37,659 nt of DNA from Fidelibacterota bacterium (GCA_021161185.1 JAGHBC010000144.1:1-37659); one strand, 5' to 3'; shown: positions 12,352 through 37,029, numbered from the stretch's first letter. Notes: generated by a model from the sequence alone, not told the origin. Numbers and translations: made by a program.

Positions 12352-13191
12352 ATGATTAAACGAATTTATTTTTTAACATCCGAAATAGTTCCCTTTGCGG
12401 AAAACTATCACCTTGCATCCTTTTCAAAAGAGATACCGGTGGTATTCAATGAAAGAAAATTTGACTTCAGAGTAATGATGCCGAAATACTCTTTCATCAG
12501 CGAAAGACGTTATGTCCTACGTGAAGTTATTCGATTGAGGGACATGGAACTTCAGTTTAAAAATGAAACCATCATGGCCAGTGTAAAGTCGGCTTTTATT
12601 CCAAATACAAAAGTTCAGGTCTATTTCCTCGAACATGAAAATTATTACACGAATGAAGCACCCGGTCTGTATGAAGAGCAGCCTAAGTCGGAATTTGGAC
12701 GAAATGCCTTGCGATTTGGCTATTTTGCGTCGGCGGCGTTAATAACCTTAAATTATTTACGGTGGAAACCGGAAGTAATTATCTGTAACGATTGGCAAAT
12801 GAGTTTGGTCCCATTACTGATTAATTCCAATATATTGGACAAATCCTATTTTGAGGGCGTTAAAATTATCCAAATATTGCAGTCAAAAAATCCCAATTCG
12901 AAGTATAAGATCGAAGATTATAAAAGCATTGGACTGACGGAATTCGATACCGCTTTAATAGAGGATGGCGATAAAATGGATTGTGTTGCCGCCGCTCATC
13001 ATATCTGTGATCATACCCTGGTGATAAATAATAAAGAAGATCTGTTGGAAACTTATAAAGCTGATCCTACGTTTAAAAGTTTGTTTAAAGATAGCGAACC
13101 AAAAATTACAACTTATAATCTTGAGAATGAATCTCCGGAAGAATGGCAAAAGTTAGCAGATGAAATTATTAGAATTGTGGAAAAATTATAA
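12352..13191 (+). CDS. Truncated glycogen/starch synthase-like protein (GT5 N-terminal domain only)
   Basis: The 279 residues correspond to the N-terminal Rossmann half of GT5 glycogen synthases: YFLTSEIVPFAE at the start, FRVMMPKYSFISERRYVLREV, VQVYFLEHENYY and PEVIICNDWQMSLVPL. The C-terminal GT-B half that binds ADP-glucose is absent. The N-terminal KxGG loop used by real synthases is also missing: after PFAE comes NYHLASFSKEI, and the usual HDWQ is NDWQ. The gene is therefore unlikely to make glycogen on its own. I recall proteins of about 270 residues with this same reduced form throughout Bacteroidota, annotated as glycogen/starch synthase and of unknown function, next to a DUF4270 lipoprotein gene. 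The following lipoprotein gene here overlaps by 32 bases, the same kind of arrangement. Confidence 0.72.
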   Translation: MIKRIYFLTSEIVPFAENYHLASFSKEIPVVFNERKFDFRVMMPKYSFISERRYVLREVIRLRDMELQFKNETIMASVKSAFIPNTKVQVYFLEHENYYTNEAPGLYEEQPKSEFGRNALRFGYFASAALITLNYLRWKPEVIICNDWQMSLVPLLINSNILDKSYFEGVKIIQILQSKNPNSKYKIEDYKSIGLTEFDTALIEDGDKMDCVAAAHHICDHTLVINNKEDLLETYKADPTFKSLFKDSEPKITTYNLENESPEEWQKLADEIIRIVEKL

Positions 13192-14419
13192 TCAAAAGGA
13201 TCGCCGTTCCGGGCGCTCAATAAGTCAACCGCCTTATCTTGCTATCATTTCAGTCTATAAATGGTGGTTTCTTGTTATATTATTGGTTTTGGGAGCATGT
13301 GAAGAAAAAATACCGACTCTGCCGATCAACAAAGCGCCTTTAATATTCGAAACAATCACTATTCCGGCTAATTCCCTGAATTTTGTTCAGAGAACTATAG
13401 AACCCAATTTGGGCACCTCAGGTGTTCTGTTTGCCGGCAACGATGAACATATCTATGCCTATACGTTATTAAAGTTTGCAGACCTTACGAGCCTACCGGA
13501 TATCCTGGATTCGCTCATATCGGTGTCTCTGAATTTGCAAACTTACCATCAATTTCAATCTTCAGGAGTGTCGGCGGATTCCGTTGATATATCAATTTCC
13601 CGGCTCTATAATAATGGGGATGATCCCTGGTCGGAAGATAGTAGTAACTATAATAACTTTGTTTTAACGGACTACACGGTTGATTATCTTACTTCCTTTA
13701 CATTTCACGAAAGCGATACTATAACTGTTAAAAGTGTTTTGCTGGATAGTGTTTTGCTGGATTGGCATGCCGGAAATAATACGGACTATACTCTGGTTTT
13801 ACAGCAGGCCGACACAGCGATAGCCAGCGTACAGGCATTCTATTCCAGTGAAGAAACTTATTATCCGTGGTTAGAGATTTCTTACATTCAGGATGGTGAT
13901 ACCGTTATTAATAAAATCAAACCCTCCGAAGATCTGTCTATAATATCTTTTAAGGATAATGTGGATACTGACAAAAGCCTGTCAATCAGCGCCGGTCGAA
14001 TGTCTTTTGTCCGTTTGAATTTTAATTTAAAAAATCTAATCCTGGATAAAAATGCAGTAATTGCCAAAGCTAATTTACATTTAAATATTAATCAGGACCA
14101 GAGCCAGTCATACGGGGAAAATTTCAGTCTTTATGTGACGATACCGGATTCTGTCGTGAATGATACTTCGGATTATAATCCTATGCATCAGGTCTATGAT
14201 CACCTGCATCCGATTGGAAGTACGGACAACGATGCGGTAATTGATGTCAAGAAGGTGATTCAAGGCATTACCAGTAACTATATCGATAACTATGGAATCG
14301 TTCTGTGGGCGGCGCCGACAAATTTAAATATATCGACTATAAGTTTTTATAATACATCCAGTCAAAATCCGGTCGATAGCCGACCTTATTTGGAAATACT
14401 AACCATGAAAGAACAATAG
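13160..14419 (+). CDS. Lipoprotein with two beta-rich repeats, DUF4270/DNRLRE-like
   Basis: No enzyme family is recognisable. The protein has a long, basic N-terminus (residues 1-34), a hydrophobic stretch WWFLVILLVLGAC ending in a lipobox with C47, then two domains of similar plan. Domain 1 (about 55-250) and domain 2 (about 250-417) each run: hydrophobic strand (SVSLNLQ / KANLHLNI), a segment starting with DSVDISI / ENFSLYVT, a strand ending YTLVLQQ / YGIVLWAAP, and a closing PWLEISY / RPYLEIL. This resembles DNRLRE-type and DUF4270-type surface proteins. The ATG at 13160 overlaps the upstream gene by 32 bases and leaves an unusually long pre-membrane segment; no better start codon is available downstream. 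The role is unknown, probably at the outer membrane. Confidence 0.6.
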   Translation: MKLLELWKNYNQKDRRSGRSISQPPYLAIISVYKWWFLVILLVLGACEEKIPTLPINKAPLIFETITIPANSLNFVQRTIEPNLGTSGVLFAGNDEHIYAYTLLKFADLTSLPDILDSLISVSLNLQTYHQFQSSGVSADSVDISISRLYNNGDDPWSEDSSNYNNFVLTDYTVDYLTSFTFHESDTITVKSVLLDSVLLDWHAGNNTDYTLVLQQADTAIASVQAFYSSEETYYPWLEISYIQDGDTVINKIKPSEDLSIISFKDNVDTDKSLSISAGRMSFVRLNFNLKNLILDKNAVIAKANLHLNINQDQSQSYGENFSLYVTIPDSVVNDTSDYNPMHQVYDHLHPIGSTDNDAVIDVKKVIQGITSNYIDNYGIVLWAAPTNLNISTISFYNTSSQNPVDSRPYLEILTMKEQ

Positions 14420-14423
14420 ATTA

Positions 14424-15617
14424 ATGTATAAACGGATATTGTTATTACTGCTTATCTCCGGATCATTGATGGGACAGAATTCTAATTATTCTTCCTATGG
14501 CTTTGGTTTACCGGCTCCTTACCTTTCTGTCCGCAGCCTTGGATTGGGTAATACCGGGGCGGCAATCTCCGATTCATTAAGTCTAAATATAGCCAATCCA
14601 GCGCTCTGGAATGGGTTTGCTACAACCTCTTTGCAGGGACAGGCGGGCTCATCCATGCTTGAAAATCAACAAGGAATATTAACCCAATTTTTAGGATTTT
14701 CTGTTAAATTCCCTGTGGGTGATAAGGTTGGTCTTGCCATGGGTATCACACCGGTGACACGGATGGAAGGGGGAAAAAGTTTCACTGATTCCAGCTCCTT
14801 TGGAGCGACGGTAGTAAACTATTCATCCGATGTTCAGGTTTCCGGTGGGATTTCACAATTCTTCATAGGCGGTGGTTACCGGATAAGTCCGCGGTTTCAA
14901 CTGGGATTAAAAGCCCAAGTATATTTTGGTAATTATTTGACCAAAATGGATACCGATCTTGATGATGGAAGTATAAAAAGTTATTTTAAGAAATATACAA
15001 TTGTTCAGGGGGTCCAAATTGGTACCGGTTCGTACTGGATCAGCAAAGACCGTAAATCGGGGTTGGCGCTTTATTTGGATTATCCTTTAAAATTTGAATC
15101 TTACCGAATGTACGATTTTTATTTTGGCGATGACAGCACAACCAGCCACCAGGCAATTCCTTATCCGGCGATGTTTCAGTTGGGCGTCCGAAGGCAAATA
15201 AGCAAATCGCTGACTTTTTCTGCGGATGTTTCACATTCTATCGTTTCGGGTTCACTATTAAAGGACTTTTATGTCCTCGAAAAAACTGAAGCAAAAAATC
15301 CCTTTTATATTGGATTCGGTCTTGAAAAAGAGAAACCCTATCGACCGGGGACAACTATTTGGCAGCAAATGGCGCTGAGAGGCGGCGCATACTATAAATC
15401 GGAGATGATTTATCAATCCGGTGGGTTGAAAGAGTCCGGTATCAGCATTGGAGTAGGATTGCCTTTTATGCAAAATTTAAATCGCATAGATTTAGCGATT
15501 GTTGCTGCAATTCGCGACGGATTTCTAAATAATACCTACGGCAAAGAGAAGGTGCTGTCCGTTTATATCAGCGTTACAACAGGGGAATTGTGGTTTAGGA
15601 AGTTTAAACGTTTTTAA
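14424..15617 (+). CDS. Outer-membrane beta-barrel protein, function unknown
   Basis: This is a 397-residue secreted protein with an 18-residue signal peptide (cut after LMGQ or thereabouts) and an alternating beta pattern throughout, as in FadL/PorV-like barrels. The segment YLSVRSLGLGNTGAAISDSL with NIANPALW is the common start of this class, in which SxALGGAGxA and NPA motifs line the N-terminal strand. The C-terminus is basic and lacks the usual terminal aromatic carboxylate strand in an obvious form. It starts 4 bases after the lipoprotein gene and so likely works with it. I cannot name a substrate or pathway. Confidence 0.6.
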   Translation: MYKRILLLLLISGSLMGQNSNYSSYGFGLPAPYLSVRSLGLGNTGAAISDSLSLNIANPALWNGFATTSLQGQAGSSMLENQQGILTQFLGFSVKFPVGDKVGLAMGITPVTRMEGGKSFTDSSSFGATVVNYSSDVQVSGGISQFFIGGGYRISPRFQLGLKAQVYFGNYLTKMDTDLDDGSIKSYFKKYTIVQGVQIGTGSYWISKDRKSGLALYLDYPLKFESYRMYDFYFGDDSTTSHQAIPYPAMFQLGVRRQISKSLTFSADVSHSIVSGSLLKDFYVLEKTEAKNPFYIGFGLEKEKPYRPGTTIWQQMALRGGAYYKSEMIYQSGGLKESGISIGVGLPFMQNLNRIDLAIVAAIRDGFLNNTYGKEKVLSVYISVTTGELWFRKFKRF

Positions 15618-19636: not shown

Positions 19637-20899
19637 ATGAAAAAAATTCTCGTTGTATTTTTTATAGTGATTGCTAGCGTTTTCTCTCTAAACGCTCAGA
19701 GTGAAGCAGGTGCGATCTGGCTTTTGATTAACCCCGGAGCCCGTCCGGCAGGCATGGGTGAAGCCGGTGTCGCAGTGGCAAACGATGCCTATGCCAGCTA
19801 CTGGAATCCAGCCGGACTTGGGTTTTTGCGGGGGAGAGAAGTGGCGCTAACTCATACGAACTGGTTACCGAATCTGGCAAGTGATATTTATTATGAGTTC
19901 GTTGGTTATCGGCATTTTGTTAAAAACGTAGGTACTTTAGGCGGTAATCTTGTTTTGATGAATCTCGGTGAGCAGGATCGTACCGATGAATACGGAAATT
20001 TCCTCGGTACTTTTTCTTCCTATATGATGGCGATAACCGGTTCCTACGGAACGGCTCTATCGCGTACATCTGCGATTGGTATTAATATAAAAATGATCTA
20101 TCAGCATTTAACCGATCAGGGCGCTGGGGCAGAACTGGGGAAGGGAACATCCACTAACTTTGCCTTTGATGTAGCTTACATGAAAAAGCAGTTTTTAACT
20201 AAAAACCTGACTTTTGGTGCTACTATAGCTAATATTGGACCAAAAATTGCCTTTATTGACGTTTCTCAGGCTGATCCAATGCCCACGAATCTGAAAATGG
20301 GTTTAAATTACACTTTCGGTGGCGAATTTAATAGAGTAACTGTCGCCTACGATGTCAATAAACTGCTGGTTGCTTCATATCCCAACAGAGATATTGACGG
20401 CGATGAACGTGTTGGATATTATGATGAAAATGGTCATTATGTCGGTGCTGCCGGACAATACAATAAAGACGGTCAAATGGAAGCGGCTCATACCGATGAC
20501 TGGTACATCGGGATGTTCACATCCTGGATTGACGATTGGTTATTGCTGTATGATTCTGATGCTGACGGTATTGGCAAAGATGTCGGTGATGGGAAAAATC
20601 AATATGGAAAAAAAGCCGATGAAGATGGAGATACCAATGACGGATCTCTGGTGAGGGAACTCGAGAAATTAAATCACAACCTCGGCGTCGAATACTGGTA
20701 TTCGGATCTTTTTGCGATTCGTATCGGATGTATCTATGATAAAACCGGTAAGATCCTCATGAAAGGTAAATGGCCTGTCCCGACTTTTGGTGCCGGTTTA
20801 CGTTATGCCGGATTGGGAATTGACTTTGGTTATACTGCCGGTGAAGCCGGTCACCCGCGGGCGAACACGATGTTTTTCTCACTGAATATAAAATTTTAG
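19637..20899 (+). CDS. PorV/PorQ-family outer-membrane protein with Asp-rich insert
   Basis: PorV-type barrels are outer-membrane partners of the T9SS that hand cargo to the attachment machinery. The signal peptide ends at LNAQ (residue 20). The family start INPGARPAGMGEAGVAVANDAYASYWNPAGLG and the ending with RANTMFFSLNIKF are clear. Between about residues 252 and 335 there is an acidic insert with Ca-binding-type loops, DIDGDERVG (252-260) and DSDADGIGKD (306-315), that the standard barrel does not need. It stands directly before a gene for a protein with a T9SS sorting domain, as expected for a cargo partner. I left the symbol blank because PorV and close paralogues cannot be separated by eye. 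Confidence 0.8.
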   Translation: MKKILVVFFIVIASVFSLNAQSEAGAIWLLINPGARPAGMGEAGVAVANDAYASYWNPAGLGFLRGREVALTHTNWLPNLASDIYYEFVGYRHFVKNVGTLGGNLVLMNLGEQDRTDEYGNFLGTFSSYMMAITGSYGTALSRTSAIGINIKMIYQHLTDQGAGAELGKGTSTNFAFDVAYMKKQFLTKNLTFGATIANIGPKIAFIDVSQADPMPTNLKMGLNYTFGGEFNRVTVAYDVNKLLVASYPNRDIDGDERVGYYDENGHYVGAAGQYNKDGQMEAAHTDDWYIGMFTSWIDDWLLLYDSDADGIGKDVGDGKNQYGKKADEDGDTNDGSLVRELEKLNHNLGVEYWYSDLFAIRIGCIYDKTGKILMKGKWPVPTFGAGLRYAGLGIDFGYTAGEAGHPRANTMFFSLNIKF

Positions 20900-20960: not shown

Positions 20961-23900
20961 ATGAAAAAACGATTTTTATTTTCATTGATATTATTACCAG
21001 TTGTGCTATTAGCGCTTAATCCTTCAAAAGCTAATATACAACCCTCTTTACGAAAGTTATCTTCACCGTATATCTCCGGACCGCTGACAAACGGCACGAT
21101 TTCTATCTGTGCGTTGCGGGTAGCATTTCAGGAAGATGACAATGAAGCAACAACCGGCACCGGTCAATTTTTGGAATCTGCAACATTGCCTTGTGATAAT
21201 TTTCCCGTTATCGATCCCGCTCCTCATAATAATGCCTATTTTAAGGACCATATCCGGGCATTGGCAAACTTTTACAGCCACGCTTCCAACGGGCACGTTG
21301 TTATCGACACCAATCTCTCAAGCGTATTTCCTTTAGACGACTCAAATCCCTACCAACTATCCCGTAAGATGGAATACTACCATCCGTTTTTACAAAAAGA
21401 TTCCATTGATATTCGTCTGACACAGCTTTTTGTTGAAGCCGTAAAATTGGCTGATGACGATACTGATATCGATTTCAGCAAATATGATGTCGTGGTTGTA
21501 TTTCATGCCGGAGTCGGTCAGGATTTTGATCTTTTCCTCGATCCGACGCCCTATGATATCCCATCAGCCTGTTTAACCAGCGCCGATTTGATGAAATATT
21601 TTTCCGAAACAGGTGAATCGGCAAACAGCATATCCGTAGACAATGGAACTGTTCAAATCGACCGGGGACTCATACTGCCCGAATCTCAAAATCACCTACT
21701 ATATCCAAATTGGGAAGACGTCTTTGGTGACGCTTCGATACCCTGCGATTATCAAATCGGTCTGAATGGGACATTTGCTTTCATGATGGGTTTTTATCTC
21801 GGCTTGCCGGGGCTATATAATACGGAAACCGGTGAAACGGGGATTGGAAAATTCGGACTGATGGATCAGGGGTCGGCGAACCTGAACGGGCTGGTTCCGG
21901 CTTATCCTTCCGCCTGGGAACGGGAGTTCATGGGCTGGGATACACCGGTGATTGCGCAGGGCTTTAATGATGTTAAACTGCGTCATGCAGAGTCCGGAGC
22001 CGATACAACTCTGTGGAAGATACCGATTAATGATAATGAATATTTTTTACTGGAAAACAGATATACGGATGTCTATCCCGGCGTGACTTTGGACAGTATT
22101 CAGTACAGGCTTTATGTCGAAGCCGGCGAAAAAGAACCGCAGCCCTTAATTCCGCTGATTGTGGATTCAATTGATGCGAAATTTTCAGCGGCGACTGGTG
22201 TACTGCTTTCAGTTCCGAGATATGATGTTGGTTTGCCGGGCGCCGGACTGCTGATCTGGCATATTGATGAATCGGTTATCGATGCCAATCTTGCGACTAA
22301 CAGTGTGAATCTTAATAAGAACCATCGCGGCGTGGATCTCGAGGAGGGCGACGGCGCCCAGGATCTGGGTTATGAATCTCAGATGATTGGCTCTACCGTG
22401 GATGTGGGTTGGTATTTTGATCCATGGTTTGCCGGCAATGAAGGCTTCTGGCACTTGAATCCCGATTATCCCGAAGATGCTGAAAAACGGGTGGGATTTA
22501 GCGATTATACCAATCCGTCTTCCCGCAGCTATGACCGGGCTTATACCGGGATTGTGGTGGACAGTATCGGACCGGCAGATTCGGTGATGACGTTTCGGAT
22601 TTCTGAGGAATGCCAAAGATTTGAGGATGAACATATAAAAATATCATCAGGGATATTAAATGTTGACATATTTGTGGATGACGGATCAACCGAGTTTATT
22701 ACTATCTCTGACAGTATATATTTATACTTGCCAAACACCGAAAAGCTTTCTGCAACCAGTTATTTTGGTTTTAGACCAATTGAGGTGATTGGCATATCGC
22801 CAAACACATTTGCATTTTCAAATGAAACACACCGATATGTTGAGAACGATACTTCGGACAGGCTTTTACAGGTTTGGCGGATTAACGATGATTACCATCT
22901 GAATTTGATTGACACGTTGGAATATAGAATATATAAACCGTATAGTAATCTGTTTTATGATAATGGAGTATTTCTTCAGGTTATTCAAACACTCAACAGG
23001 CAGACCATCTTAATGAGTTATTCTGATCAGACTGGCAATATCGAGTATGAACAGATAATTGATGATGGAAGTTATAAAATTGTTGGACAAGGAAACGGAA
23101 TATTTTTAGTAAATAGTGATGATGGCTCGATTGATAAATTAAGTTTGAATTCTAATGGTATCCAAAATATTGACCAACTGCAGGTAACGGTGACACCGTT
23201 AGTTCTCAGTGCAGCGGTTGGTTTTATCGATGCTAATAATATTCCAGATGTAGTTACAGTGAACAGGAATGGTATCGAATTAATATTAAATCCTGGTTCA
23301 GATTCTGTTGAACTGAAATCCTATGCTGTTCATTCCTCTTACGGCGACCATCTTGCCCTGAGTGATATTGATGGGGATACACGCCCGGAAATACTTCTGC
23401 AAACTAGTTATGATCTATATGCTTTTAACGAAGCATTATTGCTGGAAAATAATTATCCGATCAGTGTTCCAAACCAATTCCGAGGAACAATGTTTGATAC
23501 GCAGTTACTCACAAGTGACGTTGATGGAGATGGATTAGTAGATGTTATTACGATGTTGGATCATACTGGCATAATTTCTTTTAATTACCGGGGAGAACTG
23601 ATTGATGGATTTCCCAAAAGCTTCCCAATGCTATTAGATGGAACCGTTTCTTTGTTATCATTTAATGGTAGCTTGGTTTTTTGTGGGAGAACTGCAGAAC
23701 CAGCAGGACATTATACTGCAATTCAATTGAGTGATAATGTTTTATCTGAGGATGCATGGTACACGAGCGGTGGGAATCGGAAGCGGAATAATTATTATTC
23801 CTTAATTCCATCCGGAAACGGAATCGTTTCTAATGGTCTTTTAAACAAGCATAAAACCTTTAACTGGCCGAATCCGACCAAGTTTAACCGCACGGCGATT

Positions 23901-24122
23901 CGCTATTTCCCGACTGCGGAATGTGATATTTTGATTGATATCTATGATCTTGCCGGGGATTTTATCACATCTTTCAGGGATTCCAATCCATTAATTAATG
24001 ATTACAACGAAATAGAGTGGAACGTCACTAATGTAGCTAACGGCGTCTATTTTGCCGTTGTAAAAGCCACGTCCGGCAGTAAGACCGAAAGTAAAATCGT
24101 CAAAATAATGGTTATTCATTAG
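20961..24122 (+). CDS. Secreted M6 peptidase-like protein lacking the active site, with T9SS sorting domain
   Basis: The protein has 1053 residues. After a signal peptide (about 1-25) comes an M6 (immune inhibitor A-type) peptidase-like domain to about 550, recognisable by the GLPGLYNTETGETGIGKFGLMDQGS region, AWEREFMGW, and GAGLLIWHIDESV with NHRGVDLEEGDG. The catalytic HExxHxxGxP is replaced by FMMGFYLGLP (274-283): both His and the Glu are lost, so it should not be an active metallopeptidase. Residues about 560-970 form a beta-propeller with FG-GAP/VCBS-type Asp loops (SDIDGDTRPEI, SDVDGDGLVDV). The last 85 or so residues are a T9SS type A sorting domain (NWPNPTKFNRTAIRY ... IYDLAGDF ... 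NGVYFAVV). The stop overlaps the GTG of the next gene as TAGTG. A binding or structural role on the cell surface is likely. Confidence 0.75.
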   Translation: MKKRFLFSLILLPVVLLALNPSKANIQPSLRKLSSPYISGPLTNGTISICALRVAFQEDDNEATTGTGQFLESATLPCDNFPVIDPAPHNNAYFKDHIRALANFYSHASNGHVVIDTNLSSVFPLDDSNPYQLSRKMEYYHPFLQKDSIDIRLTQLFVEAVKLADDDTDIDFSKYDVVVVFHAGVGQDFDLFLDPTPYDIPSACLTSADLMKYFSETGESANSISVDNGTVQIDRGLILPESQNHLLYPNWEDVFGDASIPCDYQIGLNGTFAFMMGFYLGLPGLYNTETGETGIGKFGLMDQGSANLNGLVPAYPSAWEREFMGWDTPVIAQGFNDVKLRHAESGADTTLWKIPINDNEYFLLENRYTDVYPGVTLDSIQYRLYVEAGEKEPQPLIPLIVDSIDAKFSAATGVLLSVPRYDVGLPGAGLLIWHIDESVIDANLATNSVNLNKNHRGVDLEEGDGAQDLGYESQMIGSTVDVGWYFDPWFAGNEGFWHLNPDYPEDAEKRVGFSDYTNPSSRSYDRAYTGIVVDSIGPADSVMTFRISEECQRFEDEHIKISSGILNVDIFVDDGSTEFITISDSIYLYLPNTEKLSATSYFGFRPIEVIGISPNTFAFSNETHRYVENDTSDRLLQVWRINDDYHLNLIDTLEYRIYKPYSNLFYDNGVFLQVIQTLNRQTILMSYSDQTGNIEYEQIIDDGSYKIVGQGNGIFLVNSDDGSIDKLSLNSNGIQNIDQLQVTVTPLVLSAAVGFIDANNIPDVVTVNRNGIELILNPGSDSVELKSYAVHSSYGDHLALSDIDGDTRPEILLQTSYDLYAFNEALLLENNYPISVPNQFRGTMFDTQLLTSDVDGDGLVDVITMLDHTGIISFNYRGELIDGFPKSFPMLLDGTVSLLSFNGSLVFCGRTAEPAGHYTAIQLSDNVLSEDAWYTSGGNRKRNNYYSLIPSGNGIVSNGLLNKHKTFNWPNPTKFNRTAIRYFPTAECDILIDIYDLAGDFITSFRDSNPLINDYNEIEWNVTNVANGVYFAVVKATSGSKTESKIVKIMVIH

Positions 24123-27100
24123 TGTCTAAAGTTCATCGAATACTTATAAATTATATTTTCTTTTTCCTGATCTTCAGCGGGATTTTTATTCCGGCTAAAG
24201 TAAATGCCCAATTTGCCACTTATAATCATCCCGAATTGAATTGGAAAAGTTTTGAAACCGACCATTTTGAGATTCATTATCATGAAGGCGCCGAGTGGAC
24301 CGCCTGGAAGTCAGCCGATATTGCCGAGGCTGTTTATGGACCCGTTACTTCATTCTATAATTATGAACCGGATCAAAAAACCGATCTGATTATTAAAGAT
24401 ATTGGCGATAACTCTAACGGCGCCGCTTACTATTACGACAACAAGATTGAAATCTGGGCTACACCCCTGGACTATCCGCTGAGAGGAAATCATTACTGGT
24501 TGCTGGATGTAATCACCCATGAATTCACTCATATAGTTTCGCTTCAGAAATCAATGAAATACACCCGCTCGATACCGGGTTTCTATTTTCAGGTAATTGA
24601 CTATGAAGATGAAAAACGTGATGATGTTGTTTACGGATATCCCCGGGTAATTTCCTCTTATCCGATTCCGGGGCTGGTGATTCCTATGTGGTTAGCCGAA
24701 GGGATGGCGCAATTCATGTATCCCGGAACGACCAATGACCTTTGGGATTCTCATCGGGATATGTTGTTGCGTGACCGCACACTGCACAAGAAGGTCTTAT
24801 CCTTCAGTCAAATGGCTTCATTTGGGAAACGGGGCATTGGAAATGAATCGACCTACAACCAGGGTTATGCTTTTGTCAGATATCTATCCGATCGTTTTGG
24901 ACCGGATGTGATTCCCCGGTTGGCAGACATTATTTCAAATCCCGTACAGTTTTCGATTAATAATGCGCTGAAGAAAGCCACCGGAGTTCCCGGTAAGCAG
25001 ATATATAACGAATGGGTTCAATATCTTGAAACCTATTATGGCAAACTGGCGCAAACAATTTTACAAAATCAGGTAATTGGCGATATTCTAATTGGTGACG
25101 CTACGACTCAGTATTATCCGGAGTGGAGCGGTGATTCACTGATCTATTATCTCTCAAATCGCGGGCGCGATTATTTTATGCAGACCTCATTGTATGCATA
25201 CGACGTAAATACAAAGAAAAGCAAATTAATTCAACCCAAAGTACTATCGCGCATATCGGTCGCCCCGGACGGTAAAAGTATTTATTATTCCAAAAGTAGC
25301 AAACCCGACAAACAGGGCTGTGTCTTTTTTGATATTTATCGCTATGATTTACAGCGCAAGAAGGAAAAACAGATTACAAAATATGCCCGGGCTTATAACC
25401 CGGCGATATCACCCAACGGCAAACAACTCGCCTTTGTTTCCGGTCGGGACGGCACCTCGAACCTGTTTATCATGAATATGGACTCGATGACATCAAAAAA
25501 GGTCACCGATTACAGTGACGGCTTGGAGATATTCACCGCTCACTGGTCGCCTGATGGCAGACAGATTGCTTTCGATTATATGACCGATCACGGCCGGAAT
25601 ATCGCCGTGTACCACGTCGCCGATGGAAAATTTGACTATATAGATACCGAACATTATGATTCCCGAAATCCTTTTTTCAGCCCCGATGGAAAATGGCTCT
25701 ATTACGCTTGCGATAAAACAGGCATCTTTAACATTTACCGCAAGTCGCTTGGTAGCGGCGCCGTGGAACTGGTGACCAATGTCGTCGGCGGCGCCCAAAT
25801 GCCTTCCGTGAATCAAAAAGGTGAATTGCTCTATTCGCTTTTTGATGATTCGTCTTTTAAGATCGCTATGATCGAAGAACCCCGGGAGATCAGTAATGAA
25901 ATTGCACAATATTTCAATTATTCTGAAACGGTTCCCAACATTATGGCTGTCGCGGAATTGGAACGAGTAAAGCCGGTAAAATATAAAGACAAGTTCTCGA
26001 AAATGTTTATTATGCCTCGCGTAATGATAGACTATGGCACCGTGAAACCGGGTTTTTATTTCTCTTCGTCGGAAATTCTGGACCGTTTTAATATTTTCGG
26101 GGGCGCCTCGGTCAACAGCATCAAAGATCGGGATTTGATGGTGTTATTGGAATATCATCAGTGGTATCCGACGATTTATCTGGAGTTTAATAATATCAGC
26201 CGCAGTATTTTAAATAAAAAAACTACTTATAACGGTTACCCGATTGAAGTGGATTATACCTTTTATTTAACTGAGGCGCTTGCGGGAATTTCTGTTCCCA
26301 TGTCCGGCATCAATCAGTTAAGGTTTGACGTGAGTTGGTCGAAGTACCGGACAGCGACAGATGAGAAAATTCCATCAGCCGGTATTTATTCCAATGGATT
26401 CACCTATGATTATTACCGGGGTGTAGATTTTAAACTGAACTGGCTGCTTAAAAAGGTAGTTCCAACTTTGAATCAATTTACAAATCCGGACAACGGCATT
26501 ATTTTAAACACCAATATTTATAGAAATTATGATAAATTTCTAAAGGATTTTGGCGTCAATGAGGATTTTGGGACATTAGCCGAAAATTTCCGTAAAAATT
26601 ATTACTGGAAAATTGAGCATGAAGGTGAATGGCGGCACAAATATCCGGTGGTCAACAAATTGGTTGGAACCTTGAAGTGGCGAGCCGGCTGGATATCCAA
26701 ATATGATATTGATACCTTTTTCAACTTTTTTGCCGGGGGAATGCCCGGTTTGAGGGGTTATCCATTTTATAGCATGGAAGGACGCAACCTGTTCAGTTTG
26801 CACTATACCTGGAGAATTCCGCTGTTTCGGGAACAAGATATTCAGATTTTGCCTTTCAATCTGCAAAACGCATTTTTGGCGACCTATGTTGAAACCGGGA
26901 ACGCTTGGAATAAGGTAAAGGGCTATCCGGGCATGAACTGGTCGGATTTTACACTGAATACCGTGGACATCGTAAAATCCATAACATCGGATTTTAAATC
27001 CGATATTGGTATACAATTAAGATTAAGCGGATTTTCATTTTATGCTTATCCAACGGCAATCAGTCTGGATTTCGTCTATGGTATTGACGAGTTTACAATC

Positions 27101-27175
27101 GTAGACAGGCAAGATGTACCCCATCAGTATGGGAGAGAATGGCGAACATATTTAACAATACTTTTTGGATTATAA
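24122..27175 (+). CDS. Outer-membrane metallopeptidase: gluzincin, PD40 propeller and Omp85-like barrel
   Basis: The protein has 1017 residues and a signal peptide ending at VNAQ (residue 30). Residues about 31-315 are a gluzincin (peptidase MA-like) domain with H133-E-F-T-H137 and the third zinc ligand E193 in WLAEGMAQF. Residues about 320-600 hold five or six PD40 (TolB-like) blades, each with a SPDGK-type turn (ISPNGKQLAF, WSPDGRQIAF, FSPDGKWLYY). From about 640 to the end it is beta-rich; GGMPGLRGYPFYSMEGRNL, with LRGY at 877-880, matches the (V/L)RG(F/Y) motif of Omp85 barrels. I see no POTRA domain. The design suggests a protease anchored by its own barrel. Its GTG start overlaps the pseudo-M6 stop, so the two are translationally coupled. 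Confidence 0.75.
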   Translation: MSKVHRILINYIFFFLIFSGIFIPAKVNAQFATYNHPELNWKSFETDHFEIHYHEGAEWTAWKSADIAEAVYGPVTSFYNYEPDQKTDLIIKDIGDNSNGAAYYYDNKIEIWATPLDYPLRGNHYWLLDVITHEFTHIVSLQKSMKYTRSIPGFYFQVIDYEDEKRDDVVYGYPRVISSYPIPGLVIPMWLAEGMAQFMYPGTTNDLWDSHRDMLLRDRTLHKKVLSFSQMASFGKRGIGNESTYNQGYAFVRYLSDRFGPDVIPRLADIISNPVQFSINNALKKATGVPGKQIYNEWVQYLETYYGKLAQTILQNQVIGDILIGDATTQYYPEWSGDSLIYYLSNRGRDYFMQTSLYAYDVNTKKSKLIQPKVLSRISVAPDGKSIYYSKSSKPDKQGCVFFDIYRYDLQRKKEKQITKYARAYNPAISPNGKQLAFVSGRDGTSNLFIMNMDSMTSKKVTDYSDGLEIFTAHWSPDGRQIAFDYMTDHGRNIAVYHVADGKFDYIDTEHYDSRNPFFSPDGKWLYYACDKTGIFNIYRKSLGSGAVELVTNVVGGAQMPSVNQKGELLYSLFDDSSFKIAMIEEPREISNEIAQYFNYSETVPNIMAVAELERVKPVKYKDKFSKMFIMPRVMIDYGTVKPGFYFSSSEILDRFNIFGGASVNSIKDRDLMVLLEYHQWYPTIYLEFNNISRSILNKKTTYNGYPIEVDYTFYLTEALAGISVPMSGINQLRFDVSWSKYRTATDEKIPSAGIYSNGFTYDYYRGVDFKLNWLLKKVVPTLNQFTNPDNGIILNTNIYRNYDKFLKDFGVNEDFGTLAENFRKNYYWKIEHEGEWRHKYPVVNKLVGTLKWRAGWISKYDIDTFFNFFAGGMPGLRGYPFYSMEGRNLFSLHYTWRIPLFREQDIQILPFNLQNAFLATYVETGNAWNKVKGYPGMNWSDFTLNTVDIVKSITSDFKSDIGIQLRLSGFSFYAYPTAISLDFVYGIDEFTIVDRQDVPHQYGREWRTYLTILFGL

Positions 27176-27184
27176 GGAGGTATA

Positions 27185-28060
27185 ATGAAAAAGACGATTA
27201 TTAAGACGGCATTGCTCCTTGGCTTTTTATTGCCTGCACTGGTTTTCGGGCAGGTGTATCTGGCAAATGAAACCTTAACTACATCCGATCGCGCTATGCT
27301 GGAAAGCGGATTGAAGTTTAATTCGTCTCCGCAAGATTCTTTCGAGTTTGAATATAAAAAATCACCGGGTAAAGCATTTTTATTATCGGCACTGGTACCG
27401 GGTGCCGGTGAATATTATGCGGGCGCCAAATGGCGGGCTTTGACGTTTGCCGGTGTTGAAGTATTTTCCTGGATAATGTATTTCAACAGGAAAGGTAAGG
27501 GCGAAGACCTGGAAAAAGAATATAAGAAGTATGCCGATGAAAATTGGACATTGAAAAATTTATATATGAATGGCATGAATAGTGAGAAAACCGGACTCTC
27601 GGGGTCGCATTACATTTATCTGGAATATGATGACGTTGAATATGAAGGCAATGCCACGTATTTGGATACTGCTTTTGTGGGTTGGGAATCCTATGTATTA
27701 AATGGAGATATGCAACCTGTCCGCACACGTGATTATTATGAAAATATTGGTAAATATGATCAATTTGCGGGCGGTTGGAATGATTTTTTGAATTTCAATT
27801 CCGATCCTGATACAGTGTATATGTCAGATCTGCGGAATAATTATTTAAATCAGCGCAAAGATTCCAATGATGCGTTAAAGATGGCGACCAATTTCGCCAC
27901 GGCAATTATGTTTAATCATATAATTAGCGCTTTTCATGCCCAGGTTGCGGCGAAAAATTATTTCCCCGAAGCGGAAAAAGTCAGTTGGCAGGTCGGCTTA
28001 ATTACGGACATTCGTCAGAAAAATCCTTTCAGAGGTGTGTCGTTATCGGTGGCTTTTTAA
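27185..28060 (+). CDS. DUF5683-like membrane-associated protein
   Basis: A perfect GGAGG site precedes the ATG, 9 bases after the upstream stop, so it belongs to the same operon. The 291-residue protein has a signal peptide (cut near FGQ, residue 23) and the segment SPGKAFLLSALVPGAGEYYAGAKWRAL, typical of DUF5683-type proteins in this superphylum (hydrophobic, S-x-L-x-P-G-x-G, then Y-x-G-x-x-W-x-A). One or two further hydrophobic helices follow, then a polar region with many Tyr, Asn and Asp. The C-terminus FRGVSLSVAF looks like a membrane-spanning beta strand. The function of this family is not known to me. It may support the coupled surface protease. Confidence 0.55.
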   Translation: MKKTIIKTALLLGFLLPALVFGQVYLANETLTTSDRAMLESGLKFNSSPQDSFEFEYKKSPGKAFLLSALVPGAGEYYAGAKWRALTFAGVEVFSWIMYFNRKGKGEDLEKEYKKYADENWTLKNLYMNGMNSEKTGLSGSHYIYLEYDDVEYEGNATYLDTAFVGWESYVLNGDMQPVRTRDYYENIGKYDQFAGGWNDFLNFNSDPDTVYMSDLRNNYLNQRKDSNDALKMATNFATAIMFNHIISAFHAQVAAKNYFPEAEKVSWQVGLITDIRQKNPFRGVSLSVAF

Positions 28061-28305: not shown

Positions 28306-29109
28306 ATGAGAGTTATTAAATCGGGAAAATTGAAGCCGGTTATTTTAATCGCGCTGATAATAATGTTGGTCGGATGTGCCGGAACAAAGATAAAAACGGG
28401 TATGAGTACCGAGGAATATTTCAAAAAAGCTGAAACCGCTTTTAAGAAAAAAAGATGGGAATCCGCCATTGATAATTTCAATATGGTCCTTTTAAATAGT
28501 CCCGGCGGTGAATTAGCCGATGACGCCCAGTTTAAACTGGGAGAGTGTTACTTTAACAAGAAAGAATTTCTCCTGGCAGTTTCGGAATATCAGCAGCTTA
28601 TCGAGCGATATAGTTATAGCCCCTTCGTTGAAGAGGCGTACTATAAAATTGCCCTGTCGTACTATAAGCAGTCGCCGAAATATCCTCTGGACCAGGTGAA
28701 TTCTCTACGAGCCTTACAAAGTTTTCAGGATTTTATTGATTCCTATCCGGCGAGCGAATTGCGTCAGAGTGCTGAGGATCAGATTAAAGATATTCGTAAT
28801 AAACTTGCCCGGAAAGTTTTCGAAAGCGGAAAATTATACCGAAAAATGGAAGAGTGGCAATCGGCGATAATTTATTTAGATAAAATGCTTGAGGAGTTCT
28901 ACGATACCGACTGGGTTGTAAAGGCAAAATTGGAGAAAGCCCACTGCTATATCAAACTCCACCAATTTGATCAGTATCAGGAATTGATCGAAGAAATTCA
29001 GAAAGAGGAAAAATCCCTTAAAGAAGAAAAACGCTTGAATTCTTTAAAACGGTTATATGAACGCGAACTTCTGAAGATAGAAAAGGAAAAGAAGAAGTTT
29101 AGCAAATGA
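28306..29109 (+). CDS. bamD: Outer-membrane assembly lipoprotein BamD
   Basis: BamD is the essential lipoprotein of the BAM complex that inserts beta-barrel proteins in the outer membrane. The lipobox is LVGC (C24). The TPR series begins at about residue 37 (EEYFKKAETAFKKKRWESAI) and includes the BamD-type segments FKLGECYFNKKEFLLAVSEY and EEAYYKIALSYYKQ. At 267 residues, with a Lys/Glu-rich coiled tail, it is slightly longer than E. coli BamD. The stop overlaps the nadD ATG as ATGA, so translation is coupled. It matches the outer-membrane theme of this half of the window. Confidence 0.88.
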   Translation: MRVIKSGKLKPVILIALIIMLVGCAGTKIKTGMSTEEYFKKAETAFKKKRWESAIDNFNMVLLNSPGGELADDAQFKLGECYFNKKEFLLAVSEYQQLIERYSYSPFVEEAYYKIALSYYKQSPKYPLDQVNSLRALQSFQDFIDSYPASELRQSAEDQIKDIRNKLARKVFESGKLYRKMEEWQSAIIYLDKMLEEFYDTDWVVKAKLEKAHCYIKLHQFDQYQELIEEIQKEEKSLKEEKRLNSLKRLYERELLKIEKEKKKFSK

Positions 29110-33120: not shown

Positions 33121-36100
33121 GTGAAAAAAGCAGTTAAAATAGCGATCTGGATATTTATCGTACTCCTACTTGTAGGAAGCGGGGCTGCCTTCTATATACT
33201 TCACTCAGATATCTGGAAGAATTCCCTGGCTGCCGTACTTCATAAACAGTTGGAAAGTAAGTATCAGCTGGATTTGTCAATTGAGGAAATAAGTGGTAGT
33301 CCTTTCGGCAGTCTTCAATTCAAAAGTCTTAATCTAGCCACGTTTAATAACGCAGAAATTCTTTATATCGGTAAAATAAATTTAGAGTTCGGTTTAATTC
33401 CGCTTATTTTTCAAAAAGGTACAATCAATTACCTCGGCATTGATTCCCTGTTCTTTTCTTATCCCGGAAGTATCGATACTTTAAAATCACATCTTAGCCT
33501 TCAAAACAGATCGGCTTCTGGAAAACGGTTAGAATTTCAAAAAATTGAAATAACAAAATTAATTATTCACGATAGTAATAATTCTGAAGAAGAATTAGTA
33601 ACCAGCCAGGCGATAAACGGCAGTTGTCTATTTACGCCGGAGTCTATCTCAATATTCGTTGAAGATGCTGGTTTTTTTGTTGAGTCATTCAACGAAAAAG
33701 TGACGATGCAAAATACCGCAATGTCATTGATATCCGACTCTTTGGTTATTCATGAATGTCAATTAAAAAATAGATCTACCGAACTGGGATTGTGTGGGTA
33801 TGTAAAATTGGATTCCGGCAAGAGATTTAATCTTGATTGCAGAGCCGGGCGAATTATCTTCCGGGAACGTTTCCCCGAGCAGCAAAATATATTTTCAAAG
33901 AATGATTACCTGGATATTGTGGGTAACGTGAACAATGAAGATGATTTTGTTCAAATAGATTTTAGGTTTAACGGCGTTTATCAAGATAACAAAATCACAA
34001 AAGGGGTTGTTAAAGGATCTATAGATCAGGGCGATTATAGTGTCTCTGAATTTTTCTGCCGTTCCGGAGAGGAAACTATTACCGGTAGTGGAAAGTGGAA
34101 TGCAAAAAGTGGTTTATTTGCCCAAATTGGCATCGACGGCGTAAATTTGGAAAAATGGAATGTCCTTAATATGCAAACGCGGGTAAATGGTCTCGTATCG
34201 GTCAACGTTGATGGTAATTTATTTAACCCCAACAGTATTATTACGAAAATAAATTTCAATCATACGCGCTTTGATACTCTCCTTGTTAATTCCATGGAAG
34301 GTAAATTTATTTATGCCAATGGTCGCATTGAGACGGTTGATACCGTGCGGGCATTTTTTGAAGATACGAAAGTAAAACTTGAGGGCTGGGGGAATCTGGA
34401 TTCCAACACTGTAAATGCAAGAGTCTATTTTAATTCAAGAAACGTTCTTTCGCTTTCGGAATTAGCCGGGATTGGGAAACTCAAGGGCGGATTGGAAGGG
34501 TTTCTTGAAGCAACCGGAAAAATCCGCAATCCGGATTTTCGGGGATGGATCAGAGGCCGTGATATTGGCGTTTCAAATATGTATTTCGAAGATGCTGTTG
34601 CGCGTTTTGGTCTTCTTAATATCAGGGAAAAGCATTTTGGCGACATCTATGTTGAGGCAACGAACGGTATTACTCCGCTGCTTAACGATACAATTCCGAT
34701 GGCATCAATGATCGTTAGTTTTGAAAATGACACGGCAATTGTAAGGTCTTTACGGATTGTCGGTGAAGATCTTAATGTTGAGATTCAAGGGAAAATGATC
34801 GAATTTACAGACCTCTATTTTGACCGGATTGAAGCTGACAAACAAGGCAATTCAATACGAAATATTGACCCGATTCATTTTTCCTGGAATGCCGATACGA
34901 TCAGTTTGGATGAAGTTCGTTTTTCACTGAATGGCGGTATGTTAATCGTGTCGGGCGATGCAGTAAACCGCCGGATTAAGTCGCTTATTGTTAATATCAG
35001 CGATTTAAACATTGATCCTTTTAATAGCTATTTACGAGGTCCTCGGGGAGTTACGGGTGTATTAAACGGATTGATCTCTTATGTGGATACTTCCGGAGTC
35101 CCTGCAGTTTATAGCCGAATAGATATAAAAGATGCAAATTTATTCGGGAATAATTTTAATATTGTTCGACTCGAATCGAGAATAGCGCAAAACCGGATTA
35201 AGTTGGAAAATATATTGTTCGAGGATGTTGAAAAAGGATTCATGAATGGATATGGTACCCTTGGGTGTAATTTTCCATTGACTGAGGGTTTTATGTTTAT
35301 CGACTCAACGGATTCGATAGATATTCAGATGGTATTTGAAAATTTCGCTTTTAATATATTTGATCCTTTTCTGTTACCTGGAAAGTCGAAAGACGGCAAG
35401 ATGTTTGGATCATTGAATATTAACGGGCTCATGAATGATCCTGTATTTAAGTATCAATTAAAGATAATGGATCCGGTTTTCGATCGTTTATCCGGAGATG
35501 AATTACAGGTGAAAGGAGAATATAAAAATTCAAAATTAGAATTTGCCGACATTATGTTGCGGGATGAAAAGGGACTATGCAGGGGCTCCGGCTATTTGCC
35601 ATATAATTTTAAATTTATACCGAGACATTTTATCCTTGAAAAAGATTCAAGTATGTATATGAATTTTTCCCTACACACATCGGGGCTCAAATTTTTATCC
35701 GAATATGTAAAAATATTTGAGAGTATAGACGGCGAATATAATTTGGCTCTGAGTCTTTCCGGAACACCAAATAATCCTATCCGTTCGGGGAATGTTATTG
35801 TGAGAAATGGGGTTGTTCAACTTAGACCGCTTGAAAATCCTATAACCGGTCTTGAAGGCAGCGCTATAATGCGTAATAATACGATGGAAATTGTATCTTT
35901 ATCAGGATATATGCAAAAGCCTGTATCACGAACCCGTATAGATAAATTCAGGCGCAAATTAAGTTCTTGCACCTGGGACATTCTGTTTCCCCCGTCACTA
36001 TCGTCCAATGAACCAAACGTGTCTATAGCCGGCACACTTGACTTTACAAAATTTTTCAGACCTGCTTTTGACATTCAAGTGACCGGAAAGGAGATGTACA

Positions 36101-37029
36101 TTCGTACACTTCTGGCAGAACAAGAGGGAATTGTCGATGGTCAATTCAGTGTTATCGGTGGCGATACGTTGAATATCGAGGGTAATGTTGATATCAATGA
36201 ATTTATTATTCGGAATGAATTCGGAAGTTCCGAACAGCTATTAAAGAAAGTATTACCAAGTAAAACCTATACAAATATCAATTTGCATACGATTATTCCC
36301 GGCAACTTATATTTTCGCAACAGCCAGTTGGATTGTGAGCTTGAAGGCGAAATGTGGATCATTAAACACGGAGCTGACCCATATCGCTTTTCCGGAACAC
36401 TTGATATACGTAAGGGAAAATTCATTTATTACGGTTGGGAGTTTGAGGTTGTTCACGGAACAGTGATTTTTGATCCTACGGAATTCAATCCGATCTTGGA
36501 TATAGAAGCAAAAGTAAATCTTGCATCTTATGTACAATCCGATACCATGACTACCCAATTAGCTGAAGATGATTATGTAGTAATACGGCTGTCCGGAGAC
36601 CTTCAGAACCCTACCTTGGAATTTGATTCCGGAAATAAATATAATGAAAGTGATATATTAATGTTTTTAACCAGAACAGGTGGACCCTTTAATCAAGATC
36701 GTCTATCAGCTGATGTCATAAACGTATTTGGATTGTATTTTAAGAGGCAATTTGAAAAGAATATCAGTCGGATCAGCGGTTTGGATGAATTTGAATTGCG
36801 TACCAGGGGAAATTTATTGTCCAATCGACAGCCGGATCAGTGGAGTTTTGTCATTGGTCAAAAAATACGGCCCAATCTTTATTTAAAATACGAACGTGCA
36901 TTATCATTGATTGAACCCAATCAGCAATTGGGAGTTGAATATCGCTTAAGCAGGAATATCTCCATAGTAGGCGATATTAACCAGGATGGATTGCTAAGTA
37001 TTAACTATATATATAAGTATCGATATTAA
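33121..37029 (+). CDS. tamB: TamB-like translocation and assembly protein
   Basis: TamB-type proteins are long beta-groove bridges between inner and outer membrane and are linked to phospholipid transport and outer-membrane protein assembly. The 1302-residue protein has an N-terminal membrane anchor (about residues 5-27), then more than 1000 residues of repetitive beta strands with the AsmA/TamB pattern, and the DUF490 (TamB C-terminal) block near the end: FSGTLDIRKGKFIYYGWEF, VIFDPTEFNPILDIEA, VIRLSGDLQNPTLEFDS, DILMFLTRTG. The GTG start has an AGGTGG site 5 bases upstream. The Omp85 gene right behind it (2 bases after the stop) is the natural partner, as TamA is for TamB. Confidence 0.9.
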   Translation: MKKAVKIAIWIFIVLLLVGSGAAFYILHSDIWKNSLAAVLHKQLESKYQLDLSIEEISGSPFGSLQFKSLNLATFNNAEILYIGKINLEFGLIPLIFQKGTINYLGIDSLFFSYPGSIDTLKSHLSLQNRSASGKRLEFQKIEITKLIIHDSNNSEEELVTSQAINGSCLFTPESISIFVEDAGFFVESFNEKVTMQNTAMSLISDSLVIHECQLKNRSTELGLCGYVKLDSGKRFNLDCRAGRIIFRERFPEQQNIFSKNDYLDIVGNVNNEDDFVQIDFRFNGVYQDNKITKGVVKGSIDQGDYSVSEFFCRSGEETITGSGKWNAKSGLFAQIGIDGVNLEKWNVLNMQTRVNGLVSVNVDGNLFNPNSIITKINFNHTRFDTLLVNSMEGKFIYANGRIETVDTVRAFFEDTKVKLEGWGNLDSNTVNARVYFNSRNVLSLSELAGIGKLKGGLEGFLEATGKIRNPDFRGWIRGRDIGVSNMYFEDAVARFGLLNIREKHFGDIYVEATNGITPLLNDTIPMASMIVSFENDTAIVRSLRIVGEDLNVEIQGKMIEFTDLYFDRIEADKQGNSIRNIDPIHFSWNADTISLDEVRFSLNGGMLIVSGDAVNRRIKSLIVNISDLNIDPFNSYLRGPRGVTGVLNGLISYVDTSGVPAVYSRIDIKDANLFGNNFNIVRLESRIAQNRIKLENILFEDVEKGFMNGYGTLGCNFPLTEGFMFIDSTDSIDIQMVFENFAFNIFDPFLLPGKSKDGKMFGSLNINGLMNDPVFKYQLKIMDPVFDRLSGDELQVKGEYKNSKLEFADIMLRDEKGLCRGSGYLPYNFKFIPRHFILEKDSSMYMNFSLHTSGLKFLSEYVKIFESIDGEYNLALSLSGTPNNPIRSGNVIVRNGVVQLRPLENPITGLEGSAIMRNNTMEIVSLSGYMQKPVSRTRIDKFRRKLSSCTWDILFPPSLSSNEPNVSIAGTLDFTKFFRPAFDIQVTGKEMYIRTLLAEQEGIVDGQFSVIGGDTLNIEGNVDINEFIIRNEFGSSEQLLKKVLPSKTYTNINLHTIIPGNLYFRNSQLDCELEGEMWIIKHGADPYRFSGTLDIRKGKFIYYGWEFEVVHGTVIFDPTEFNPILDIEAKVNLASYVQSDTMTTQLAEDDYVVIRLSGDLQNPTLEFDSGNKYNESDILMFLTRTGGPFNQDRLSADVINVFGLYFKRQFEKNISRISGLDEFELRTRGNLLSNRQPDQWSFVIGQKIRPNLYLKYERALSLIEPNQQLGVEYRLSRNISIVGDINQDGLLSINYIYKYRY

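Follow-up and report, generated by a model that had tools for sequence, protein, structure and literature searches.

A predicted zinc peptidase, β-propeller and Omp85 barrel in one protein, genetically linked to type IX secretion genes in FCB bacteria

Results

We analysed a 37,659-nucleotide stretch of DNA (the window) from a Fidelibacterota bacterium (GCA_021161185.1, JAGHBC010000144.1), in which a plus-strand open reading frame at 24122–27175, with a GTG start codon, encodes a protein of 1017 residues. We call this protein, whose single chain combines a gluzincin domain with a TolB-like propeller and an Omp85 barrel, MAB. Its gene lies in a block of plus-strand genes that begins with a PorV-family outer-membrane protein at 19637–20899 (NF033709, 1.1e-74, 252 bits against a cut-off of 90; NF033710 gives 197.6 bits, short of the 250 that it requires). 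Directly upstream of MAB, at 20961–24122, is a gene that we label M6i because it resembles NCBIfam family NF052323, described as a T9SS-dependent M6-like inactivated metalloprotease, where T9SS is the type IX secretion system (8e-157, 524 bits, cut-off 600). M6i carries a type A T9SS sorting domain (Por_Secre_tail, 1.4e-6) and has no HExxH motif, which is absent from 83 of its 84 orthologs as well. The GTG of MAB and the TAG stop codon of M6i have one base in common (TAGTG), and at orthologous loci the two genes frequently overlap, by 1 or 4 bases. The block ends with a DUF5683-like protein at 27185–28060, a conserved neighbor recognized by synteny and by a match to PF18935 (3.9e-5) that lies below the gathering score.

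Within MAB, a signal peptide region (residues 1–29; 24122–24208), assigned by inspection and from a modeled hydrophobic N-terminal helix at residues 2–27, is followed by a gluzincin (peptidase MA-like) domain (residues 33–318; 24218–25075), a TolB-like β-propeller (residues 319–585; 25076–25876) and a 16-strand Omp85 barrel (residues 629–1017; 26006–27172). An earlier note on this DNA had reported a metallopeptidase, a PD40 propeller and an Omp85 barrel in a single chain at these coordinates; the reading frame is as it described, and domain matches, AlphaFold2 models and Foldseek searches bear out the three-part architecture.

The HEFTH motif of the gluzincin domain occupies residues 133–137, and the candidate third ligand, E193, lies within WLAEGMA. 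All 32 orthologs from a whole-protein search have H133, E134, H137 and E193, in agreement with the intact gluzincin site of the earlier note. The same four residues are invariant in a set of 80 MAB sequences from Neomarinimicrobiota, KSB1, Calditrichota, Ignavibacteria, LCP-89 and Bacteroidota, a set partly gathered with the pattern W..AEG, which includes E193, so that the invariance of this residue is not independent there. HE(F/Y)(T/V)H with an equally spaced glutamate is also found in the remoter orthologs examined, the two exceptions being cases where the scan took an earlier chance HExxH. The Peptidase_MA_2 profile matches MAB at 8e-6 and 26.2 bits, under its gathering score of 32.4, and matches 30 of the 32 orthologs at E ≤0.1 (best 6.6e-10). 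A profile of the peptidase domain found no convincing relative among Protein Data Bank (PDB) sequences (best E 0.21). The peptidase is the best-conserved domain: distant orthologs are 51% identical to the window MAB in the peptidase, 35% in the propeller, 32% in the barrel and 56% in loop 6 (L6) of the barrel, and selection therefore appears strongest on the peptidase and L6. The conserved zinc site suggests that MAB would be proteolytically active.

The propeller is recognized through PD40 repeats (1e-19), and its best solved relatives by sequence are the propellers of TolB (1e-16). Foldseek with the full-chain model likewise returned mostly propellers, TolB among them, and was uninformative on the other domains; a barrel-only model was made for this reason. 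TolB and MAB thus share the PD40 propeller fold, with TolB the best PDB match by both sequence and structure, but TolB is a soluble periplasmic protein of the Tol-Pal system, whereas MAB has a barrel. Against the TolB family model TIGR02800, MAB scores 106 bits, below the cut-off of 343, and so falls outside that family.

Two AlphaFold2 runs gave the C-terminal 16-strand barrel that the earlier note had expected. The full-length model, built with 32 orthologs (predicted local distance difference test score 86.7, predicted template modeling score 0.84), has 16 long strands over residues 629–1015, and the model of the barrel alone, built with 33 sequences that are mostly more divergent, again has 16. 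LRGY, at residues 877–880, lies in a 30-residue loop (residues 859–888; 26696–26785) between strand 11 (848–858) and strand 12 (889–902). This is the position of the Omp85 lumen loop L6, where the motif had to lie if the earlier assignment was right. G879 and Y880 are invariant in the 80 sequences. In a Foldseek search with the barrel model, the top 50 PDB matches listed all belong to the Omp85 superfamily (TamA, BamA, Sam50 and CdiB), with E values for these proteins of about 1e-8 to 1e-6. By sequence, the only PDB entries that a profile of the barrel reached at E<1 were TamA chains, in weak matches (E 0.019–0.11) aligned at FFAGG...(R/K)GY. The Omp85 profile search that the earlier note had proposed gave a divided answer: PF01103 matches 9 of 33 aligned related barrels (best 1.8e-10), and the window MAB is not among them. 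As modeled, the C-terminal part of MAB is a true Omp85 barrel.

POTRA domains are present in most Omp85 subfamilies. A domain-library scan of MAB gave no POTRA match, and only about 44 residues connect propeller and barrel (43–46 in nearly all orthologs, 52 in one), too short a linker for such a domain to fit. A POTRA domain between propeller and barrel was therefore rejected, and the absence of POTRA claimed earlier stands.

A survey of the architecture across genomes, also proposed in the earlier note, found MAB in Neomarinimicrobiota, KSB1/Calditrichota, Ignavibacteria and LCP-89, and the MAB family is thus present across FCB bacteria. Comparison with named genomes assigns the window to Candidatus Neomarinimicrobiota. 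All 41 genomes searched from this phylum match MAB, a few by a distant paralog only. One of these is G027, a reduced genome of 0.9 Mb that keeps SprA and has no strong PorU. Wherever the contig allows, full orthologs in these 41 genomes stand in the order porV, M6i, MAB, DUF5683, bamD, nadD. The porV–M6i–MAB–DUF5683 block also occurs in KSB1, Calditrichota, Ignavibacteria and LCP-89, and is kept in nearly all loci with contig room from Neomarinimicrobiota to Ignavibacteria. In several loci porU lies upstream of the block; in Ignavibacteria and LCP-89, the gene 5′ of porV encodes about 1300 residues and is porU (743–985 bits, cut-off 420). In the window genome, PorU is on a different contig (745 bits) and SprA is present.

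Co-occurrence was counted in 148 genomes from the phylum of one Ignavibacteria locus (L142). MAB and M6i are each found in 61 genomes, and the two sets are identical; PorU is found in 103. In at least five genomes (G055, G187, G183, G175 and G137) MAB and M6i are far apart or on separate contigs, and linkage alone therefore does not explain their co-occurrence. PorU is present in 57 of the 61 MAB genomes versus 46 of the 87 others (Fisher's test, 5e-8, which ignores shared ancestry), and lies 6.2–9.3 kb from MAB in 49 of those 57. MAB is thus both genetically linked to, and co-occurring with, T9SS genes. The partial distance correlation between MAB and M6i given PorV is 0.59, the strongest among operon pairs, with 0.31 for MAB and PorV given M6i; this support is weak because M6i is longer than PorV. 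DUF5683 was considered as a third strict partner and set aside: the family occurs in 121 of the 148 genomes, mostly away from MAB, which makes the test uninformative. Four genomes with MAB and M6i (G111, G131, G158 and G169; loci L151–L154) have no PorU at the threshold used, have SprA, and keep the porV–M6i–MAB–DUF5683 block. Of the five highest M6i scores, four come from these genomes.

Other features of the region are as follows. A BamD-like tetratricopeptide repeat lipoprotein is encoded on the plus strand at 28306–29109 (TIGR03302, 1.3e-47); this neighbor is kept 3′ of the block throughout Neomarinimicrobiota, and was not detected there in KSB1 or Ignavibacteria loci. The DUF5683-like gene is usually 3′ of MAB, with two in tandem at KSB1, Calditrichota and LCP-89 loci (L138, L112 and L116). 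A few genes downstream of the block, at 33121–37029, is a TamB-family gene (GTG start, 1302 residues); none of the window genes scanned was identified as TamA. Two adjacent open reading frames of about 400 residues each, at 13160–14419 and 14424–15617, have no Pfam match, and in several relatives the second one stands at the corresponding position upstream of the block. The window genome also holds a MAB paralog of about 20% identity on another contig (C9; L030:10919–14026), whose domains follow in the order seen in MAB, with HELVH, propeller repeats and a C-terminal LRGARYYEREGN. Many genomes of the window's phylum have paralogs of this kind, some with a different motif, HEGRH.

Discussion

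The computational analysis establishes the domain architecture, barrel fold and conserved zinc site of MAB, as well as its operon and its co-occurrence with M6i. The main addition made here is context that the earlier note had missed: the link of the block to T9SS and the strict association of MAB with M6i, a secreted pseudo-protease. The propeller–barrel arrangement has a precedent. Proteins in which an Omp85 barrel follows a TolB-like propeller, with no POTRA, were named WD40-Omp85 in 2014 by Heinz and Lithgow, who read them as reminiscent of a BamA–BamB fusion (PMC4104836). MAB has this architecture, as judged from the published description, but that description mentions neither a gluzincin domain nor a T9SS link, both seen for MAB, and its “Metallo” subfamily refers to PF00149, a different domain (PMC4104836). 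On the full gluzincin–propeller–Omp85 combination, as on the function of M6i, we found no paper in the open-access literature; the propeller–Omp85 part has been described (PMC4104836).

Several other systems resemble MAB in part. PlpD, of secretion type Vd, likewise has a hydrolase N-terminal to an Omp85 barrel, with the enzyme in the periplasm, but it is a homodimeric phospholipase with a POTRA domain, whereas MAB is zinc-peptidase-like, has a propeller and lacks POTRA (PMC11116518). Domain-library scans of MAB gave neither patatin nor POTRA matches, which places it outside type Vd. Escherichia coli BepA is an M48 periplasmic zinc metallopeptidase that matures or degrades the outer-membrane protein LptD at the β-barrel assembly machinery (BAM) (PMC8423444). 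It is soluble and, unlike MAB, has no barrel or propeller; a role in common is conjectural. The BAM of Flavobacterium johnsoniae comprises a BamA with LRGY in L6, a FadL-like barrel, extracellular partners and BamD (PMC12611786). Its Omp85 barrel with LRGY in L6 is like that of MAB, but its BamA has POTRA, its surface subunits are lipoproteins rather than T9SS cargo, and no protease is described (PMC12611786). The PorU–PorV attachment module, in which PorU is a sortase, is in many genomes encoded in one operon with MAB. The T9SS literature consulted does not list MAB as a component. In Cytophaga hutchinsonii, the gene that follows porU–porV is annotated as a zinc protease (PMC8564354).

On which side of the outer membrane would the peptidase act? 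The segment that precedes strand 1 lies in the periplasm in Omp85 proteins. If the N-terminus of MAB is placed likewise, its long loops L6, L7 and L8 (30, 29 and 19 residues) would be extracellular, and most of the inner turns are short. PlpD, a patatin-Omp85 protein long thought to be a surface enzyme, has been placed experimentally in the periplasm (PMC11116518). Because of Omp85 polarity, loop lengths and the PlpD result, we place the MAB peptidase and propeller, by analogy, in the periplasm, under the barrel.

Rather than acting alone as a surface protease, MAB probably belongs to outer-membrane or secretion machinery, of which it would be an uncharacterised component. Our preferred account, which we hold tentatively and with somewhat less than even confidence, is that MAB is a zinc peptidase anchored in the outer membrane and facing the periplasm, paired with M6i and PorV, and often PorU, that cleaves proteins on the T9SS or outer-membrane route. 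It would act where the outer membrane faces the periplasm, in a module with the secreted, catalytically dead M6i, and its cleavage could mature or clear stalled T9SS or outer-membrane assembly components or cargo, in a role like that of BepA. Their pairing suggests that M6i is a regulator, a cap or a client of MAB; both a physical contact between the two and the class of substrate are what we infer. Several observations weigh against this account. First, the Peptidase_MA_2 score of MAB itself is below the gathering score. Second, the co-occurrence counts ignore phylogeny. Third, PorU occurs without MAB in 46 genomes, so MAB is no general T9SS requirement and no core component, and the four genomes noted above have the pair without PorU at the threshold used. 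Finally, M6i is expected outside the cell, and how it would meet a periplasmic peptidase is unexplained unless they make contact through the barrel. A barrel with an outside partner is plausible because the Bacteroidota BAM has surface subunits (PMC12611786). A more ambitious form of the proposal makes MAB and M6i a two-sided outer-membrane machine across FCB bacteria, in which an active protease and a propeller would lie beneath the barrel in the periplasm and a dead, T9SS-delivered protease, held by PorV, would cap it on the outside; the machine would be dedicated to assembling or policing T9SS-related outer-membrane proteins. This we regard as doubtful.

Alternatively, MAB could be mainly an assembly or translocation factor, for example an insertase for a T9SS client (PorV, SprA or M6i-related barrels), with the peptidase in a subsidiary quality-control or regulatory role. 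Protein assembly or translocation is the task of most Omp85 proteins studied, the L6 of MAB is strongly conserved, and MAB is linked to PorV and, in the window's phylum, to a BamD-like gene. The Bacteroidota BAM also combines an Omp85 barrel with surface proteins and a FadL-like barrel (PMC12611786). But MAB lacks POTRA domains, its most conserved domain is the peptidase and not the barrel, and PlpD is an Omp85 barrel that serves to hold an enzyme (PMC11116518). We judge an insertase role possible, on the unlikely side.

The idea of a self-anchoring or self-releasing surface protease, with peptidase and propeller on the cell surface, is the least supported part of the earlier note and seems improbable. 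These bacteria commonly have other secreted metalloproteases, and M6i, as T9SS cargo, is likely surface-exposed, so that direct contact with a surface enzyme would be possible. However, the polarity of Omp85 barrels, the loop lengths of MAB and the periplasmic precedent of PlpD (PMC11116518) all argue for the opposite placement, and domain-library scans of MAB found no T9SS sorting domain. Slightly less probable still is that the gluzincin domain no longer cleaves and instead, by binding peptides or zinc, serves M6i or other partners as a structural receptor: the inactivated M6i indicates that domains of this module can lose catalysis, but all four zinc-site residues of MAB are invariant over several phyla, including the general base E134, which pure binding would not need.

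Members of the MAB family are present in a large share of the 148 sampled genomes and are therefore probably testable in a culturable species. A zinc protease built into an Omp85 barrel, conserved over several phyla and found in strict company with the secreted M6i, would add an uncharacterised factor to the field of T9SS and outer-membrane assembly. It would also be the second example of an enzyme held by an Omp85 barrel, PlpD being the first.

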